From: Fragilariopsis cylindrus CCMP1102
Lineage: Eukaryota; Bacillariophyta; Bacillariophyceae; Bacillariales; Bacillariaceae
Length of the DNA stretch: 64,000 nucleotides
Direction: 5' to 3'
Assembly: GCA_900095095.1 (NCBI GenBank)
Contig: FMBT01000294.1
Coordinates: forward strand, 496,001 to 560,000
Shown here: positions 17,889 through 43,765 of the stretch, one piece after another
Position numbering within the stretch: position 1 is the stretch's first letter
Layout of the letters: every line of letters begins with the position of its first letter
Position numbers and translations under genes: made by a program
The notes under the pieces: generated by a model
The model's database searches: none
What the model saw: only the letters and a program-made list of their open reading frames with translations
Told to the model about the DNA's origin: nothing

Positions 17889-20609
17889 TTAACGCGGTTC
17901 AATGACGAAAAATCCTTGAGGAGGGGTTGATGACAATGAGCTCTTATTGTTTGATCCCTCCCAATTCCTTGTGTCAACCAAATTTGTTTGTAATGATTCT
18001 TTGATGTCAAATCCTCTTGGTCCAATGTAAACATAGTTGTCTTTGTGAGTTAATGCAACAGAATATTTCACAATTGATTCAGGGAGTGTACTTGAAGTGG
18101 TTCCATACTCTTCTCCTGATCCCTTAAATGCTCCAGAATAGGACAAGGCAGATAAGTATGCATAATCAGTGCCATTGGGGATCGTGGTATAGTATACAAT
18201 CACTGTATCACCTCTAGCAGCTAGTGCAAAGCCTGTATCTATCTTAGAAATCCAAGATGATCCATAAAGTAGACCCTCGCCATAACCAAATACAGTTCCG
18301 GCTAAAACTTTATCAGGTAAAGTCAGACTTATTGTTCCTTCATTTGATGCAAATGAGTTACCGTTGTACGCATTATCAGTCATATGAATAGTCAAACCAG
18401 AAGGTAAGTTTACAAGAGTCACCAATTCAACTAGGTCGGGATTATCCGAATAGACTGCTGTAATCATTACATCTCCTGGTATAGGTAACTTCTTCGGCGA
18501 TTGTTTTTCTTTTTCCGGTGATGGCAATGAGCTCTTACTATTTGATCCCTCCCAATTTCTTGTGTCGACTAAGTTTTTTTGTGATGATTCTTTGATGTCA
18601 AATCCTCTTGGTCCAATGTAAACATAGTTGTCTTTGTGAGTTAATGCAACAGAATATTTCACAATTGATTCAGGGAGTGTACTTGAAGTGGTTCCATACT
18701 CTTCTCCTGATCCCTTAAATGCTCCAGAATAGGACAAGGCAGATAAGTATGCATAATCAGTGCCATTGGGGATCGTGGTATAGTATACAATCACTGTATC
18801 ACCTCTAGCAGCTAGTGCAAAGCCTGTATCTATCTTAGAAATCCAAGATGATCCATAAAGTAGACCCTCGCCATAACCAAATACAGTTCCGGCTAAAACT
18901 TTATCAGGTAAAGTCAGACTTATTGTTCCTTCATTTGATGCAAATGAGTTACCGTTGTACGCATTATCAGTCATATGAATAGTCAAACCAGAAGGTAAGT
19001 TTACAAGAGTCACCAATTCAACTAGGTCGGGATTATCCGAATAGACTGCTGTAATCATTACATCTCCCGGTATCGGCGGTTGTGTTTCTTTTTCCTTGTC
19101 ATCATTGTGATCATTATTGCTATTACACCTAATCGATCGGTCGGATTCTTCGTGGGGCTTTCCGTATATGATTGTAGCGAGATCAGGATAATCAACAAAT
19201 GGGTTACGATTACCCTGCCACCGAGAGCAAACTCGATCGTTTCGAAGTCGTTCCATTTCTGTCGGTGGATCAAGTTCGTGCCAAGTGAGGAGTGTAGATA
19301 GATATGCCATCTGATTTTTGGGATCTTCATTATCTGGACAATCTGTGAGTTCAAGATCAGGATACCTTAAATCCATATAGAATATCGCTCGTGCTATATC
19401 ACCACGAACCCCCTTCGGGGGTTGGAATACGTCACCTCCAAATAAGGCAACATCATCTCCATTAATGTTTTCGTTGTCTTGTAATGCGGATGGTGGACGG
19501 CACACGGACTGATCAGTACACGTATCAAAGTATCGATTGCTTCTAGCCGTATTGACACTCGCATCCGAAGGGAACAGATGATGTATATCTGTATAGTCAG
19601 GACCAGATTTTCCAACGCCAAGTGATTTCGGCCACGTATGTTCACGATTCCAAGTGTCGAATGTTCCTTTTGGTTCAGATGGAACATCCTTCTGCGAATA
19701 AATTAAACGAACCGATCCAGCGTTAATACCTCGATCAATATCTTTGAGTGCTTTCCAAACATCATCCCCGTCCTTGTCAGTATATGGTAGCGATCTATGT
19801 GTCTTTTCTAAAAGCGGCTGCAACATTTCTCTCGTCCACGAAGACACGTCGTATTTAGTGTCCAATGATGAAGGCGAAAGGATCGAATCGTAATACACGG
19901 CTGGATCACACAAAGAAAAAATCAACGTTCCTTCTCTTTCTACGTCATTAAGTTTTCTATTTCCATCTTTTATTGCTCCTCGCTTCTCTAATGCTACGTT
20001 ATTCTGTGCAGCATCAATCTCAACGCTATTGAGGCGATGTTCATTAACTTCGATCACAACAAGTCTTGTGCCGTCATCCTCGTCATCATCACGAGAGTTG
20101 TTCGGACTGTTGTTGATATTGTTGTCTTCTTCTTCCAGTTCATCAATAGTAGTAATATTTTCTTCGATGGGAACTTCCGTAGTAATAAAAATAGGACCCC
20201 CATTTATGTCTTCGTCCTCTTCGATGCTGCTGCTGATAATGCTGCTGCTATTGTTGCTGTTTTTGGGAGAGAACGTAACTCCAAGTATCGTTGCGATCGC
20301 GACCAAACAGATAATCATTAAGAATACACCGATACGACGAAACGGTAGGAGCGTCAATTTTCTTCTTCGGGCGATATTCTTTTCATCGTCCTTCGGTTCG
20401 GAGAATTTTTCTGCATCCGTAGTGCGCTCACTGGTTGATGTTGTCGCCTGCCGTACATAGTAATGTAGGTCAGAGGTAATTGGCATGTCGTTGTTGTCGT
20501 TGTCGTCGTTGTCGTCGTTGACGTCGATGCCTCCGACGCCAGCACCCTCGATATCGTTTAGATGGGATTTTTCATACAATTCATTATTGTCTCGGTGGAC
20601 TACGGACAT
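17889..20609 (-). CDS. Membrane-anchored endonuclease I (EndA/NucM-like) with duplicated C-terminal domain
   Basis: The first ATG of the frame is at 20609, giving 906 residues. A TM anchor (about residues 93-115, RIGVFLMIICLVAIATILGV) follows an acidic cytosolic tail, so the body is lumenal or extracellular. The catalytic domain (about 245-480) carries endonuclease I signatures: WNREHTWPKSLG with the catalytic His, DIHHLFPSDASVNTARSN, and GDIARAIFYMDLRY. Members cleave DNA and sometimes RNA without base specificity, usually outside the cell, often for nucleic-acid scavenging. Two copies of a roughly 197-residue domain (opening PGDVMITAVYSDNPDLVELV) follow, identical over most of their length. 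Such a domain resembles beta-sandwich, lamin-tail-like modules attached to secreted bacterial proteins, but the assignment is tentative. No introns are seen in the frame. Confidence 0.85.
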   Translation of the reverse strand: MSVVHRDNNELYEKSHLNDIEGAGVGGIDVNDDNDDNDNNDMPITSDLHYYVRQATTSTSERTTDAEKFSEPKDDEKNIARRRKLTLLPFRRIGVFLMIICLVAIATILGVTFSPKNSNNSSSIISSSIEEDEDINGGPIFITTEVPIEENITTIDELEEEDNNINNSPNNSRDDDEDDGTRLVVIEVNEHRLNSVEIDAAQNNVALEKRGAIKDGNRKLNDVEREGTLIFSLCDPAVYYDSILSPSSLDTKYDVSSWTREMLQPLLEKTHRSLPYTDKDGDDVWKALKDIDRGINAGSVRLIYSQKDVPSEPKGTFDTWNREHTWPKSLGVGKSGPDYTDIHHLFPSDASVNTARSNRYFDTCTDQSVCRPPSALQDNENINGDDVALFGGDVFQPPKGVRGDIARAIFYMDLRYPDLELTDCPDNEDPKNQMAYLSTLLTWHELDPPTEMERLRNDRVCSRWQGNRNPFVDYPDLATIIYGKPHEESDRSIRCNSNNDHNDDKEKETQPPIPGDVMITAVYSDNPDLVELVTLVNLPSGLTIHMTDNAYNGNSFASNEGTISLTLPDKVLAGTVFGYGEGLLYGSSWISKIDTGFALAARGDTVIVYYTTIPNGTDYAYLSALSYSGAFKGSGEEYGTTSSTLPESIVKYSVALTHKDNYVYIGPRGFDIKESSQKNLVDTRNWEGSNSKSSLPSPEKEKQSPKKLPIPGDVMITAVYSDNPDLVELVTLVNLPSGLTIHMTDNAYNGNSFASNEGTISLTLPDKVLAGTVFGYGEGLLYGSSWISKIDTGFALAARGDTVIVYYTTIPNGTDYAYLSALSYSGAFKGSGEEYGTTSSTLPESIVKYSVALTHKDNYVYIGPRGFDIKESLQTNLVDTRNWEGSNNKSSLSSTPPQGFFVIEPR
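17937..19076. repeat. Tandem 591-bp repeat inside the endonuclease gene
   Basis: Two direct copies are offset by 591 bp: 17937-18485 and 18528-19076. A core of 482 bp (17995-18476 and 18586-19067) is identical by eye, whereas the edges (for example 17937-17994 against 18528-18585) differ at about one base in eight. The unit is a whole number of codons (197) and preserves the frame. Confidence 0.9.
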
Positions 20610-21131
20610 TATTACGGATGATGGTTTAGACAATGTTTCTTCATTCAATTATAGCTATTCTCTTAGTCGCTGGAGGTTGCATATAAAGTTAAACTTGCCT
20701 GGAGGTTGCATAAGTTACTGTTCGACTTTGTAAGTTATTACCTATCTCTATCTCTTGTCGTTCCTTAGACGCACAATAAATTGATCGACGATTGATCGAC
20801 GATGATCGACGTTAATTAATGTTTTCGCCGAACCTTTCAATCTTGGTTGGTTTTACTCGTGGCATTACACATGGCATATTTTATCTATGCAAACGTGTTG
20901 GGCATAGATAGTTTTTAATATATTTTATATTATTATTATGTTTTATTTTGTTTTGTTATACACTCCTGTATTATCGAGCATAGTCTACTTATTGTTCAGA
21001 AAAAACATGAGGAGTTTGAAAAGTATCTATCTTGATCGGTGAAAAGAAGAAGTAATGACAAGTAAAATCCAGGTAGTTTATTTGACAAAATAATAAGTAC
21101 AATAATATTATATTAGGGAAACATCACATAA
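20610..21131. other. Intergenic, no gene seen
   Basis: A short duplication (GGAGGTTGCATA twice, near 20674 and 20701) and GATCGACG repeats near 20785-20810 are the only visible features. The 5' part must hold the endonuclease promoter. Confidence 0.4.
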
Positions 21132-36466: not shown

Positions 36467-39400
36467 TTAGAGCGTCCCAGCTTCCTTTTGTTCTAGGTAA
36501 TCGGACAAACTCAAACCCTTCCTTACACGCTTCTTCGTATTCTTCTTCGATGTGAGACCCCCAATTCCACTAAGAAATGATGTTTGTGCCAATGTTTCTT
36601 CGTCGATAGCAAATTGATGCGACTGGCTAAGAGCTGCTGCCTTCCCTTGCTGCTCTTGGACAAGTGGAGGAGCATGCACGTCCCCGTTAATTTGTCCAGT
36701 CCCATCCTTTGTATTCGCGGGTACCTCCGAATCTTTCTTTTCTTCAACTTCCTTTTTTTCATCTCCCTGACCAACTTGCCAAAGATTTTTTGGTTTCACC
36801 TTACGTCGTGCATATGGGTTGAACGTGTCCTTACCGGTAGGACTCTTGTCAGTAGATTTGCCTTTTGGTTTATAAAAACCATTATCAGTCATTTGATTCA
36901 TCTTGATTGCTCTTTGATTGACATCAGCCCAGTGATTAGACCTGCTTTTGTTACGGTCCGCTCGCGACTTGACCTTTTTCAGAATTCGTTTCTCTTCATC
37001 TGATCGCAACTTCAAGTATTTCTCCGCAGCTTTTACATCAGATTCTGCCTCGTTAATTTCCGTACTACCTCTGGCATCTTTGAGTCGCGCCTTGGCGTCT
37101 TCTAAAGCACCATTGGCTGCCTGTACTGCATTGGCTGCACGAGTTTGCTGCAACCCAAAATTGGTAGTGGACTGACCCTTCTGCTTCAGGTCTTTTACTT
37201 TGTTCTCGATATCTTTGGATGTATAGATAAAGTTTTCAATAAGTTCGTCTCGTTTTCGTCGAATCTTAATCGCTTCAACTTTACCAACCAATTCATCTTG
37301 TTTACGAGCGGTCTTCACGGCTGTCTCGTATTGGGTCAAATCAATTTGTGTTATCTTCGCGTCGGAGACTAATCTCAACGGAAAAAGTTTTCTGGTACCA
37401 GCAAAGTCAAGCTCAAGCATTTTATCAGTCATAATAGATTTTTGCTTTGTCACGGCAGTTCTCGCGGCAGGTAAGGCATATGGTTTTTCTGACGTATCGA
37501 CATTAACAATACGACAAAGGCGGTAGCATCGCTTCCCTTCCTCGTTTTCACCGACAAATAGCTTCACATAGCAATTTAAAACAGCCGTTTCAAAATAGGG
37601 TTCGTTGCACCACATACCCAATCTAGCTCTAGATAAAGTTATCAACAAGTAATCTTCGAGTTCTGCTGGTTTTACGGTCTTAGAACTTGTCTTTTGAGCT
37701 CTACCCATTCCTTCATCCTCGTCTTCGTCGTCAAGCTCATCGAGTTGCGATTTAGTTTTCTTCTTCGATCTAGCTTCCTGAGCTTTCTTTTGCCACGGTT
37801 TCAATGCTCCTGCTTCTTCGTAATCGTCGTCGTCATCGGAATCCTCGTCGTCGTCTCCGAAATCTGACTCACTTTCGTCTGAATCCTTTGGTGCAACCGT
37901 CTTCCGTTTCTAATAATAAAGAGTTAACAAAAGAAAACAAAGCATTAGTTTTTTGTAACACTCTCAACAGTACAGCAGTAAGAATAGAGAATACAAACAA
38001 TATGGATCAAAACGTAAATAAATACTTACTTCACGAAGTGCTGCCAAAGCTTTAGCCTTCGAATCTTTCTTCCCTGTAGCATCGCGATCTCTGGTGGAAG
38101 ATCTTCGCGATGATGACGACATTTCTAGGGCAATTTTCTCATCTTTGGATGTATCGTCTTTGCTTTTCTTCGTAGACTTCTTGACTGAAGTTGATGTCTT
38201 CCGCTTTTTGCCTTTCTGGCCCAACGCCTTCTTCTCTTCGCGGTCTTTCCGTTTCTCTTCCCGTAGAGCTTGTCTCATATCATGTTCTGCCTTACGTTTA
38301 TCAAAACGTTCAGCAAGAATAGCCTCACGCTCAAATTCAGGCATAGCTTCTAGCTTTTTCCTGTCCTCTTCGTCCGTTATCAACTGACTCTGGTCTAATG
38401 TTCCCAACTCAGTGTCCATTTCTTCTTCACTGCTTTCATCGTCAGATTCGTCAGATTCCTCCATATCATCGGGTTCAGGCGTTGGCTTTTTGGTAGCTGC
38501 GCGACCACGTGGGCGTCCCGGCTTCTTTTTTTCGGGTCTAAAGTGAGATAATTTAGGAAACAAAAAGAAAAGGAAAAGCAATAGGAAATGAGTTAGCAAG
38601 CATTAAAAACATTTTTTGCTTTTTATTGTTCGATTGAGCGAATATATTATGTTATGAATGACTCACTCTTCTTGATATTCTTCTTCGTCGTCATCATCGT
38701 CGTCGTCGTCCGAATCTAATTCCATATCATCATCATCGTCGTCTTCTTCCTTGGGTTTAGATTTTAAATTCTCAGTTTCAGCTGCCTGTGGAGTCTTTTC
38801 TTCCGCTTTTTCCTCTGCTGCGGGTTGTTCGTCTTCGTCTTCTTCGTCGGGAGCAGCAGCTTCCATCATCTGATCTTTCTCTTCATCGTCATCGTCATCA
38901 TCGTCATCGTCTGCAATTGAAGGACGCAATGATTTACCTCCCATGTTAAATACTTTCCCACCACCCCTTTGAACCGCACGGACGGGTTGGACTGCTTGAT
39001 CCTCCTCCTCGTCGTCGTCATCATCGAAACGACGTAATTGCTTCCCACCACTAGGTAGCGCCCTCAACTGCTTTCCACCACTAGGTGGCGCCCTCAACTG
39101 CTTTCCACCACTAGGTGGCGCCCTCAACTGCTTTCCACCACTAGGTGGTGCCCTCAACTGCTTTCCACCGCCTCCACTTGACATGACTGCCGGTGTCGCT
39201 TTTTCCTCTTCGACGTCATCGTCATCATCATCATCATCATCATCGTTGTCGTCATCATCGCTCTCATCTGGACGACGCAATTGCTTACCCCCACTAGAAG
39301 AGGGAGGTCGCAGCTGTTTTCCGCCGCCCCCTTGTGGCATTATTCCTGTAGCAGCAGCAGCGGCCGGTGGTTGTGGTGGTGTAGGATCTTCCTCTTCATC

Positions 39401-40353
39401 TTCATCATCCTCGTCATCGTCGCTATCATCTTCTTCGTCGGAAGGTGCCCGCATTCGCGACAGAGCTTTTCCTCCTCCGCGTTGAACCGGACGAATCGGC
39501 ATGGGCGCAGCAGGCTCGTCATCGTCATCATCGTCATCATCGTCATCATCATCATCCTCCAATTCATCATCATCGCTATCATCAGCGTCGTCATCATTAT
39601 CTTGTGGTCTGTTCATAAGATGTATGTATTGTAAAATTTGTAAACCACCCAGATAGGATAAACGAAGTTTTAGACATGGTTTTCAGTTTTTACAGTAGTT
39701 AAGGTAACAGGAAAAATAAAAGAAACGAAAGGAAGAAATACCATTTATTCATCACTGGTTCATTCTATTCGCGTGTAGTACTTACGGTGGTCGAAGTTGC
39801 TTTCCACCCGAGGGTCGTAACTGTTTCCCACCTCCTCCTCCTCGTGCAGCAGCGACGATGGGACGAGCCGGTTCGTCGTCTTCTACCTCCTCATCGCTAT
39901 CATCGTCATCGTCATCGTCGTCGCTATCATCATCGTCGTCGTCATCATCATCATCATCGCTATCGTCGTCGTCTCCGCCATTCGGAACGGAACGAAGCTG
40001 CTTACCCATACCCTTTCCACCCGGTGCACGTAGTCCCTTTCCACCCCCACGCATCGGTGCAGTATATTCCTCTTCATCTTCTGAGTCGGAATCGTCGTCG
40101 TCGTCGGATGGATCATCGTCGGCGAAACGTCGTTTGATATTAGGCTGTTTGTGTTTGCATTTTATTTTTTGAATAGGAAACAAAGTAAGGAAAAAAATCA
40201 GATGATACATACAGAATTATGATGAACAAGTCATCGGTATTTATTGAATTACGACGTGCGTGGATAATATCAAAGAAGCAAGCTTCTCTCGCTCTCCAAT
40301 GCCTCGCATCACTCGGATATAATTTATATCGTTTCTATTAATTAACCTACCAT
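36467..40353 (-). CDS. RTF1: RTF1, Paf1-complex subunit with Plus3 domain
   Basis: Coding exons are 39786-40144, 38667-39608, 38030-38537 and 36467-37909, all matching in phase (GTAAGT/GTGAGT donors). A first exon consisting only of ATG at 40351-40353 followed by GTAGGT would give the start M-PNIKRRF in phase 0; that step is inference. RTF1 is the Paf1-complex subunit that promotes H2B ubiquitination and transcript elongation. The Plus3 domain is in the last exon (from about PAELEDYLLITLSRARLGMW to LPLRLVSDAKI), which binds phosphorylated SPT5. Before it come an AT-hook-like KKKPGRPRGR and acidic segments. A coiled-coil region (AAEKYLKLRSDEEKRILKKV) and a conserved NPYARRKVKPKNLW follow. The N-terminal 430 residues are extraordinarily acidic, with Asp runs and about a dozen GGGKxLR motifs. 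Confidence 0.85.
39045..39172. repeat. 30-bp tandem repeat coding SGGKQLRAPP units in RTF1
   Basis: Four to five head-to-tail copies of a 30-bp unit (GGTGGCGCCCTCAACTGCTT plus TCCACCACTA) encode the ten-residue unit GGKQLRAPPS. Individual copies differ by single bases. Isolated GGGKQLR motifs occur elsewhere in the same two exons. Confidence 0.9.
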
Positions 40354-41017: not shown

Positions 41018-42822
41018 TTACAAATGCGAAATTGATGTAGCATAATCGCTAATAAATTTCTCAAATTTCCCCTTCAGACCTCCATGGATTTTTTTTTCTC
41101 TGTGTGCATCATATGGAAGAACAAAATTCACAATTGTGAATAAACCTTCTTCACACTTGTGGTTGCACAGACCTGCATGTGCCATCATTATCAACAATTC
41201 TCCTTTTTCAATTCGAATCGAAAACTTCTTCTTATCAGGTTCTCTGAAAAACTGGAGGATACCTCCGCCAGGTTTTTCTAGGACTCTACAAAGAAGGAGA
41301 GACCTCTTAGGTATGCCAAGTAGTGGCTTCCTAATGATGTGTTTGAATTTATCGTCACAGTGCTCTCCCCCGGGTCCTTTGTACTTATTTACTTTGAGGT
41401 TATCAGTTTTGGATATTGTCTCTCCAAAGAGGGTACCAGTTTTAGCTACCACAACACGATTAGCCAAAAAAGGTTGAGGTAGTGTGGAGGGAAACTCACC
41501 TACTACTGTCAGACTGGAAGTTGCTGCCTTAGGATTACGATAAACGCAATTTTCGATGGAATCACATTGGTGAAGTATAGAATTTGCTGTAGCTTCACCA
41601 TTGGGAATCTTGAACTTGAACAACCCAGAGGAACTCATGTTAGTTCCATCTATAGCAAATGCTATTGATAAACCTTCTGGTTTCCCCGCTGATTCCTCCA
41701 CAAAGTCCTTCACTTCATTTCTGAGAGTATTGAAGGGATCCAACCAGGGATGATTACCAGTGGAAAGTGTGATGCCGTCCTTGCTTAGTTTTGTTAGGGT
41801 ATCTACTACCTTCCAATCCACGGCGTCTTGTTTCTTGGAAACAACAACAACAACAACAAAAGAATATAATATAATATAATATGGATTAGAGTATAATATG
41901 GATTACAGTATAATACATATGATACACAAACATTCACTACAATAATTTGTATTACATTGACTTACCTTTTGTTCATTTTCTTCTGCTCTTTTTCTTTTCT
42001 CTTCCTTCCGATCCGCCGCTACGTCTTGTTTCTTTTGTTCTTTTTCTTCTGCTCTTTTTCTTTTCTCTTCCTTCCGATCCGCCGCTACGTCTTGTTTCTT
42101 GGAAACAATAACAACAACAACAATAAAAACAAAAGAATATAATATAATATGGATTAGAGTATAATACCGATTGGAGTATAATACATATGATACACAAACA
42201 TTCACTACAATAATTTGTATTACATTGAATTACCTTTTGTTCTTTTTCTTCTGCTCTTTTTCTTTTCTCTTCCTTCCGATCCGCCGCTACGTCTTGTTTC
42301 TTGGAAACAATAACAACAACAACAATAAAAACAAAAGAATATAATATAATATGGATTAGAGTATAATACCGATTGGAGTATAATACATATGATACACAAA
42401 CATTCACTACAATAATTTGTATTACATTGACTTACCTTTTGTTCTTTTTCTTCTACTCTTTTTCTTTTCTTTTCCTTCCGCTCCGCCACTACCTCTGCTT
42501 TCTTTGCTCTCTTGTCGTCCTGGATTTTCTCTTTTTCTGCTATTCTTCTTTCCGTCTCTGCTTTCTGTTGCTTCCTCTTCTTCGCTGCATTATTAATCGC
42601 TCCATTATTATCTGCTACCCATTTGAATCCAATTGAATTCAAAAGGGCTAATCGATTCGGATTCAGTACATTCTTGTTGTAAAACCAACGTTGAGTACTG
42701 ACCCATGTGCCAAATTGAGGATCCTCCATATAATTCCGTGGTACTTGTGTTGATTTGTAGTGTATATTGTACTCAACAAGTTTCTGAAAATTTCCCATCC
42801 ATTTCTGATCATAGACTGTCAT
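41018..42822 (-). CDS. Helicase-associated (HA) domain protein with tandemly duplicated Lys/Glu exons
   Basis: Exons 42436-42822, 42234-42299, 41966-42097 and 41018-41833 all join in phase 0 to give 466 residues. Exon 1, from ATG 42822, encodes a helicase-associated domain (WMGNFQKLVEYN, VPRNY, FGTWVSTQRWF, RLALLNSIGFKW), a three-helix module, probably nucleic-acid binding, found in many copies in diatom genomes. A Lys/Glu/Arg helix follows, extended by repeats of a 22-residue unit (KQDVAADRKEEKRKRAEEKE + QK): one copy in exon 2 and two fused in exon 3. The last exon encodes a 271-residue domain that I cannot place (VVDTLTKLSKDGITLSTGNH to DYATSISHL), with CNHKCEEG near its end. Introns are 132-136 bp and nearly identical to each other. 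Confidence 0.8.
41834..42501. repeat. Tandem exon+intron duplication, 202-bp unit
   Basis: The segment 42098-42299 (intron plus 66-bp exon) repeats at 42300-42501 (intron plus end of exon 1). The two 136-bp introns differ at one base by eye (GACTTAC against GAATTAC, at the donor). A third, more diverged intron copy lies at 41834-41965. The exon at 41966-42097 holds two units with no intron between them. Confidence 0.9.
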
Positions 42823-43397
42823 GTTACTGCTGGCGTTGTAGGAAGAATAGTCGACCGATCGATGGATGAAGAAGAAGCAAGAAGCGACAACGTTGTCGAT
42901 GACGTTGATATGGCTGCCGCTGTTGTTGATGTTGTCGCCTTCTTCTTCTTTTTTGTCGTAAAAATGATCGTCGTTAGTGTTATTTTTATTGTTAGTCGTC
43001 GTCGTCGTCTACTCCCGAAGAAGTGTTGTTGTTGTTGTTGTTCTGTTATTATTATTGTTTCTGTTGAGAAGTAACAGTCTTCGTCTTTCGAATGAATGAA
43101 TGAATGAATAAAGAAGAAGAGTCCAGAAACGACAATGGATTGCGTTTTGCAGAGTGATCGGCAATATTATTTTCATCATCGATCACGATTAGTGACTGAT
43201 TTCAGTCACACGCCCTCATCTTTAACTTAATGGACTTAATGGTACCATTGTACGGTACCAAATGGTACCACCATACATACGTGTAGGACCTATACAATCA
43301 TACATTTTATGAGTATTGGCAGCATACCTTCGAAGTTATGTGCATTAAGAAGAAGAAGAAGAGAGAATCCCGACGATGGGATTCCTCACTCTTTTTC
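42823..43397. other. Intergenic, simple-sequence rich
   Basis: The interval contains GTT, GAA and GTC runs and a cluster of GGTACCA/TGGTACC palindromes at 43240-43268. No gene is supported. Confidence 0.4.
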
Positions 43398-43565
43398 TTA
43401 ATAGTAGTAGTAATAACTGTTGACTTCATCATATGACGCGCCATGGAGATTGTTGGGAGATGTGCGGAACGATCGAAGATCCTTTCCAGCAAACTGTACA
43501 TCCTTCTTATCCCCAATAGCATTCACGAATTTGCTGCTAGCAAACTCAGCTCTGTCATATGACAT
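43398..43565 (-). CDS. Small ORF of 55 codons, unknown
   Basis: An ATG at 43565 opens a frame ending at a TAA at 43398-43400. The product begins MSYDRAEFASSKFVNAIGDK and continues DVQFAGKDLRSFRTSP, which has balanced, protein-like composition, and ends in five Tyr from a TAC run. It could be a short protein or a first exon. No family is recognised, and (AAC)n repeats lie just upstream. Confidence 0.3.
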   Translation of the reverse strand: MSYDRAEFASSKFVNAIGDKKDVQFAGKDLRSFRTSPNNLHGASYDEVNSYYYYY

Positions 43566-43765
43566 GTTGTTGTTGTTGTGTTATGTTGTTGTTGCGTTGT
43601 TGTTGCGTTGTTGTTGTTATTATTATTATTAGCTTCATGATACTGTCCTTATACAAACAACCAACTGAATCGTCGTACAGTACTCGTTGTTTCGTATTAG
43701 GAATTTGTGAGTGTTGTTGTGTTGTTGTGGTTGTGTTGTGTTGTGTTGTGTTGTGTTGTGTTCGA
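43566..43765. repeat. (GTT)n / (GTTGT)n simple repeats
   Basis: The stretch consists of interrupted GTT and GTTGTGTT repeats at 43566-43632 and 43709-43761, separated by unique sequence. Open frames across it are repeat artefacts. Confidence 0.85.

Follow-up and report, generated by a model that had tools for sequence, protein, structure and literature searches.

A tandem exon-intron unit as the likely site of recombination among mosaic genes of the diatom Fragilariopsis cylindrus

The HA-T1 gene and its repeated unit

In the window, i.e., the whole 64,000-nucleotide stretch of Fragilariopsis cylindrus DNA analysed here, we found on the minus strand (contig C89) a gene for a predicted 466-aa protein composed of an HA domain (PF03457, E 9.9e-14 in a Pfam search), a charged linker and a C-terminal domain of 271 aa, T1, in this order. 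When its three predicted introns are removed, a single open frame of 466 codons runs from ATG 42822 to the stop codon at 41018. The parts of the gene, and a cassette upstream of it, are as follows:

43367-43667, minus strand: 5' cassette upstream of the HA-T1 gene, 91-94% alike upstream of the genes on C465, C418 and C675
42436..42822, minus strand: exon 1, with ATG 42822, the HA domain (about 42625-42810) and the start of the charged linker; its terminal 66 bp are unit E4 (Pfam and spliced frame)
42300..42435, minus strand: intron Ic, 136 bp, phase 0, GTAAGT...TTTCCAAG, 0/136 different from intron 1 of the gene on C675
42234..42299, minus strand: exon unit E3, 66 bp, KQDVAADRKEEKRKRAEEKEQK
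42098..42233, minus strand: intron Ib, 136 bp, phase 0, donor GTAATT, one base off Ic
41966..42097, minus strand: fused exon E2+E1, 132 bp, two 66-bp units with an intron-free junction
42032..42097, minus strand: unit E2, 66 bp
41834..41965, minus strand: intron Ia, 132 bp, a diverged homologue, placed where the C-terminal domain is joined on
41018..41833, minus strand: last exon, the 271-aa domain T1 and the stop codon

Retention of Ic or Ib (each 3n+1 in length) would put the reading out of frame, and that of Ia (3n) would bring in an in-frame stop; the reading frame thus appears to support splicing of all three. Each intron carries a 17-bp tandem repeat of the TATAATACCGATTAGAG type (41875-41915, 42143-42184 and 42345-42386) and a TTG run ahead of its acceptor, and the splice junctions, inspected by eye, have only AAG in common. 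The exon unit is symmetric (66 bp, phase 0-0) and encodes 22 codons of a K/E/R-rich linker; thus, the frame is kept if a unit is added, removed or skipped. Charged residues account for 63/88 positions of the linker. A stiff single-helix linker was considered and rejected, as i/i+4 salt-bridge pairs are not in excess over shuffles (P 0.34).

The 202-bp unit, a 66-bp exon plus a 136-bp phase-0 intron, is present twice in tandem in this assembly (42234-42435 and 42032-42233), as the initial annotation had proposed, and the two copies match at 201 of 202 bases, which leaves no room for chance. Their sole difference (42229 versus 42431) is the +5 base of the donor, GTAAGT in Ic and GTAATT in Ib. 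E3 and E2 thus differ at 0/66 positions and the introns at 1/136, which bears out the single-base change reported there. Ia, described as a diverged third copy, is indeed one: its alignment to Ic (~91% alike) has 8 mismatches in 132 aligned bases, plus 4 gap columns. The adjacent exon had been read as two units joined without an intron, and its halves are 65/66 alike, the end of one abutting the start of the other exactly. E4 (42436-42501), at the end of exon 1, differs from E3 at 7/66 positions; its differences from E3 and E2 fall at unit positions 4, 5, 9, 14, 21, 31 and 47, and positions 48 to 66 are identical. Tandem Repeats Finder scored the 202-bp array at 890 and the 66-bp array at 263.

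The Ib/Ic pair upholds the view that the intron number of this HA-domain gene rose when an entire exon-intron unit was duplicated in tandem. In the AGGT model, a new intron arises from duplicated exon sequence; here, the duplicated 202 bp include a complete intron, which is also found in other genes and was not built from exon sequence. The array may have started as E4-I-E2E1-Ia, with the fused exon predating the duplication. A misaligned exchange between E4 and E2 (59/66 alike, last 19 bp identical) would then add one unit and one intron and give E4-Ic-E3-Ib-E2E1-Ia, the donor base change coming afterwards. As this one exchange would yield the array, no intron loss is required: of the gain and the absence or loss that had been seen side by side, gain by duplication is supported and loss is not, the array being explicable without it. 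Alternatively, the fused exon could stem from a precise deletion between the AAG present at both splice junctions. The available parts of a Drosophila study describe introns gained through tandem duplication and introns lost when genomic DNA between direct repeats is deleted (PMC3296678). As in that account, duplication can raise the intron count in the diatom gene, and splice-junction repeats could allow precise intron loss in the fused exon; unlike in that account, a whole pre-existing intron was duplicated and none was newly carved from an exon. Exon-only duplication also alters linkers in the family, with three 66-bp units fused in a single exon of the C675 paralogue and a fused internal repeat on C317.

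Elsewhere in the window, a 30-bp tandem repeat (39039-39169; 4.4 copies, 97%) lies within a putatively coding 339-codon open frame on the minus strand (38666-39682); a Plus-3 domain is encoded by an ORF close by (36470-37909). The product of a long minus-strand ORF (17892-20648) matches the Endonuclease I family (PF04231, E 1e-33), which is mainly bacterial.

The intron family and the modules at its sides

In the genome (67.9 Mb, 818 contigs), we found at least 21 matches with the window intron as query and at least 33 with a diverged copy from C159; these counts are lower bounds, since the search omits simple repeats and common words, so that copies in unrelated genes might escape it. The flanks of 32 matches were inspected by eye, and each of the 32 belongs to a gene or gene fragment that carries K/E/R-rich linkers or family modules; the 33rd (C536:61700) is probably a duplicate of the match on C188, because their scores are equal. 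A 35-base intron core (up to 3 mismatches) gave 12 matches and its reversed control 0; the 66-bp unit protein gave 4. The joints with both sides readable are all phase 0. Introns of the Ic type differ at 0-3/136 positions among C89 (Ic and Ib), C675 (both), C62 and intron 1 of C337/C412, and two-intron arrays occur on C675 and C337/C412 too. The HTH-bearing loci have only diverged homologues of the intron. The duplication had been presented for one gene. The process is not confined to that gene, as the intron (once at 136/136) recurs in other genes, and the C89 array thus appears as one visible step in family-wide shuffling, which the sequence of the window by itself could not reveal.

The introns are more alike between genes than the exons at their sides. 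After removal of 10 within-locus or C337/C412 pairs from 78, intron mismatches per base were fewer than in the upstream 66 bp in 68/68 between-gene pairs and fewer than in the downstream 66 bp in 66/68; taken over all 78 pairs, the median is 3.3% for the intron, 15% upstream and 29% downstream, for pairs that are not independent and with mismatches only counted, up to 46 gap columns being left aside. Rapid change in repetitive linker exons could exaggerate this contrast. The synonymous divergence of T1 among C89, C185 and C317 (dS 0.095-0.121) lies above the intron differences of Ic from the C317 intron (4/136) and of Ia from those of C317 and C185 (8/132). In 4 T1 and 4 T2 copies, drawn from 11 contigs with matches for each, dN/dS is 0.52-0.77 for T1 and 0.48-1.37 for T2 (few changes), which suggests that these sequences are under weak constraint at best. 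Broken family members are found on C412, C337, C159 and C439. C412 and C337 are 97.6% alike over 5 kb with T1 stops on both contigs and, be they alleles or paralogues, are probably decaying.

Close intron copies are located at module junctions of about 20 related loci. On the N side, the HA domain is represented by the window gene and DUF6824 by C675, C62, C317 and the T2 gene on C37. HTH families score above the Pfam cut-off on C108, C536, C356 and C618 and below it on C81; weak Zf_WRKY19 matches, also under the cut-off, are found on C62 and C356. A Cys-rich motif without a Pfam name occurs on C675, C185, C317, C465 and C182, in partial or looser form in the C37 T2 gene and on C159. On the C side, T1 was found on 11 contigs and T2 likewise on 11, uninterrupted on 9, with the other 8 of these copies 97-98% identical in amino acids to the query copy; T3 (assigned by eye and from one 123-bp match) is on C341, C418, C188 and C439. 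The combinations, read from predicted multi-exon gene models, are HA-T1, DUF6824-T1, DUF6824-T2, HTH-T1, Cys-T1 and Cys-T2. T1 and T2 exhibit no detectable relationship with each other and no Pfam match above the cut-off. Among PDB entries, T1 has one unconvincing match (E 0.75) and T2 none, and an AlphaFold model of T1 from the single sequence is unusable (pLDDT 33.6). Genome-wide, HA and DUF6824 have 150 scored matches each (150 of 583 and 150 of 319 candidates scored). The silicon-transporter family PF03842 has 27 matches in this genome and a hit, under the cut-off, in 1 of 14 control genomes; together, these three families point to a diatom.

Very similar introns thus link different N parts (HA, DUF6824, Cys-rich) to the unrelated C parts T1 and T2. 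We compared 17 of 20 loci (C408, C493 and C412, which seem to duplicate C37, C83 and C337, were excluded), which form 136 pairs that are not statistically independent. With all available upstream DNA included and the introns masked, 29 pairs share the N side, 29 the C side and 4 both; within a 1350-bp N window and a threshold of at least 100 bp of N-side DNA, the numbers are 24, 29 and 3 (N matches 71-75%). C675 and C317 are 98.5% alike over 717 bp of the N side, with the unit exon adjoining the intron 79/79 identical, and their C sides (T2 versus T1) do not match. In turn, C675 and C62 are 98.7% alike on the C side (intron plus T2 97-99%) and have no N-side match, either in the 1350-bp window or in all upstream DNA. 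The strongest of the four pairs alike on both sides, C675-C465 (N 827 bp at 82%, C 98.6%), was added by the wider window; such pairs indicate that some of the family members arose simply by duplication. Two features expected of exon shuffling are present, i.e., the same exon-intron unit joined to differing partner modules, and flanking introns of the same phase around an exon whose length is a multiple of three (66 bp, 0-0).

A chimeric intron and the ends of the modules

T2 has an intron of its own, which we found in six T2 genes (100-105 bp in these) and in the broken member on C439; the exons upstream of it differ, with a stretch in common between C592 and C182. The intron of C675 and C62 is chimeric: it opens with about the first 130 bases of the window intron family, the next 19 bases are exactly those of the T2 intron, and a third piece follows. 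The longest such match in 2000 Markov-resampled introns was 14 bases. The two chimeric introns are 2/166 apart and so probably go back to one event. The 5' joint of T2 falls in different exons; on C439, a T3 exon encloses the T2 unit. Seven T2 joints are at T2's own intron, outside the window intron family, which is therefore not the sole joint.

At the far side, the distance from the stop codon to the end of the homology is about 30, 50 and 70-75 bp for T2 (four copies, by eye); T1 homology stops about 20-35 bp beyond the codon. These variable ends suggest that C modules are joined through homology at the intron side and by end joining at the other. Retroposition of the C-terminal modules was rejected, as T2 copies retain their intron; in the four T2 3' ends read, there is no consistent poly(A). 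The 5' cassette has a possible 48-codon frame (MSYDRAEFASSKFVNAIGDKK...), broken on C418, and the genes on C465, C418 and C675 that share it carry other modules and other C-terminal parts. It is a third part shared among genes, its tie to the HA-T1 gene being putative.

Explanations, known systems and meaning

We consider it likely that the 202-bp unit serves as the joint at which the genes of a mosaic family recombine, through unequal exchange within genes and ectopic exchange between them. Within a gene, the unit would offer a homologous substrate, and unequal exchange would set the unit number. Between genes, we infer that about 200 bp of homology could seed ectopic recombination or one-sided conversion, whereby N-terminal modules of DNA-binding type (HA, DUF6824, HTH, Cys-rich) would be swapped against C-terminal ones (T1, T2, T3). 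Transfer of a C module would proceed by homology at the intron side and end joining at the far side, and the product would be a protein in which a linker of variable length separates a module of DNA-binding type from a putative effector domain.

Another, unlikely, account is that T1, T2 and T3 are themselves mobile parts moved by a transposon or capture, with the intron riding at their edge. The nine uninterrupted T2 copies, 97-98% identical in amino acids behind varied upstream exons, would fit, as would T2's own intron in six of them and in broken C439. Yet the distance of the 3' end from the stop varies (~30, 50, 70-75 bp), and several genes also have N-side modules or the 5' cassette in common, which argues that both sides move.

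We regard it as rather improbable that ordinary exon duplication alone is at work, with a local accident in the window gene and similar introns elsewhere inherited through gene duplication. Tandem exon-intron duplication is already well known, the T1 genes of C89, C185, C317 and C337 are paralogues (92-95% alike over the C-terminal exon), and C675 and C465 are alike on both sides. Inheritance alone, however, does not yield near-alike introns between genes with unmatched N and C parts, nor a chimera of two types of intron.

An assembly artefact, in which collapsed or chimeric contigs produce the tandem unit or the mosaics, is very unlikely. Some of the 818 contigs do look like duplicates of one another (C493/C83 show no difference over 3275 bp, C37/C408 are nearly alike), and the tandem units are themselves 201/202 identical; but the shared T1 and T2 parts are about 1% or more apart between loci, and are thus not a single sequence placed twice, and two-intron arrays exist on C675 and C337/C412 too.

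Introners and introner-like elements are very similar introns found at many positions, and a mobile intron that inserts into genes, making introns, would account for the many loci with closely similar copies and for an intron less diverged than its flanking exons; we set this highly improbable reading aside because every locus with inspected flanks (32 of at least 33 matches, by eye) looks like one linker-bearing family or its fragments, with the intron adjoining homologous exons, and because the 35-base core has just 12 matches against 0 for the reversed control.

The proposed recombination joint has its closest parallels in Tetrahymena and brown algae. In the accessible portions of a Tetrahymena study, LRR genes have exons of exactly 90 bp, phase 2, nearly 50,000 of them over ten species (PMC6564038). 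These genes resemble the diatom family in their short symmetric exons, which form tandem exon-intron units of similar nucleotide sequence and varying number; young units have characteristic intron lengths, some repeats are fused to other domains, and ectopic recombination within and between genes is proposed. The differences, as far as these portions go, lie in the LRR unit, phase 2 and an adjacent LINE-like element (PMC6564038), compared with a charged linker, phase 0 and about 20 loci in the diatom; moreover, they mention one possible two-exon fusion only, whereas fused units are found in at least two genes of the diatom family. The brown-algal LRR-ROCO genes, in the sections available of PMC11378527, are likewise from a stramenopile, with one fixed-length repeat per exon, symmetric phase and strong shuffling; they differ in their 72-bp phase-2 LRR exons and as a GTPase family, and those sections describe no module swaps via near-identical introns, unlike the diatom family. 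The diatom unit (KQDVAADRKEEKRKRAEEKEQK) has no leucine-rich repeat; thus, judged by sequence, the family works like the Tetrahymena and brown-algal systems and is a member of neither. In open-licence PubMed Central, we found no paper on DUF6824, none on a diatom genome with ectopic recombination and introns, and none on the gene family described here; the accessible text of a Seminavis paper mentions exon shuffling in passing (PMC7335047).

The family provides a fresh and useful example of exon shuffling, a known process. Exon shuffling has mostly been inferred from old genes; here, some of the swapped modules are still 97-99% alike, and, from the chimeric intron, one breakpoint can be placed with a precision of a few bases. 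Changes in intron number and the exchange of modules both appear to be driven by one repeat. A bolder version, which we find doubtful, is that the family is a combinatorial factory for DNA-binding-type proteins, with the intron conserved beyond its exons as a dedicated joint, through which N-terminal recognition modules and C-terminal effector modules would be brought into ever new combinations, and tandem units tuning linker length, perhaps polymorphically within the species. What homologous introns contribute to recombination, and in which order introns were gained and lost, can be tested in strains of this unicellular alga.
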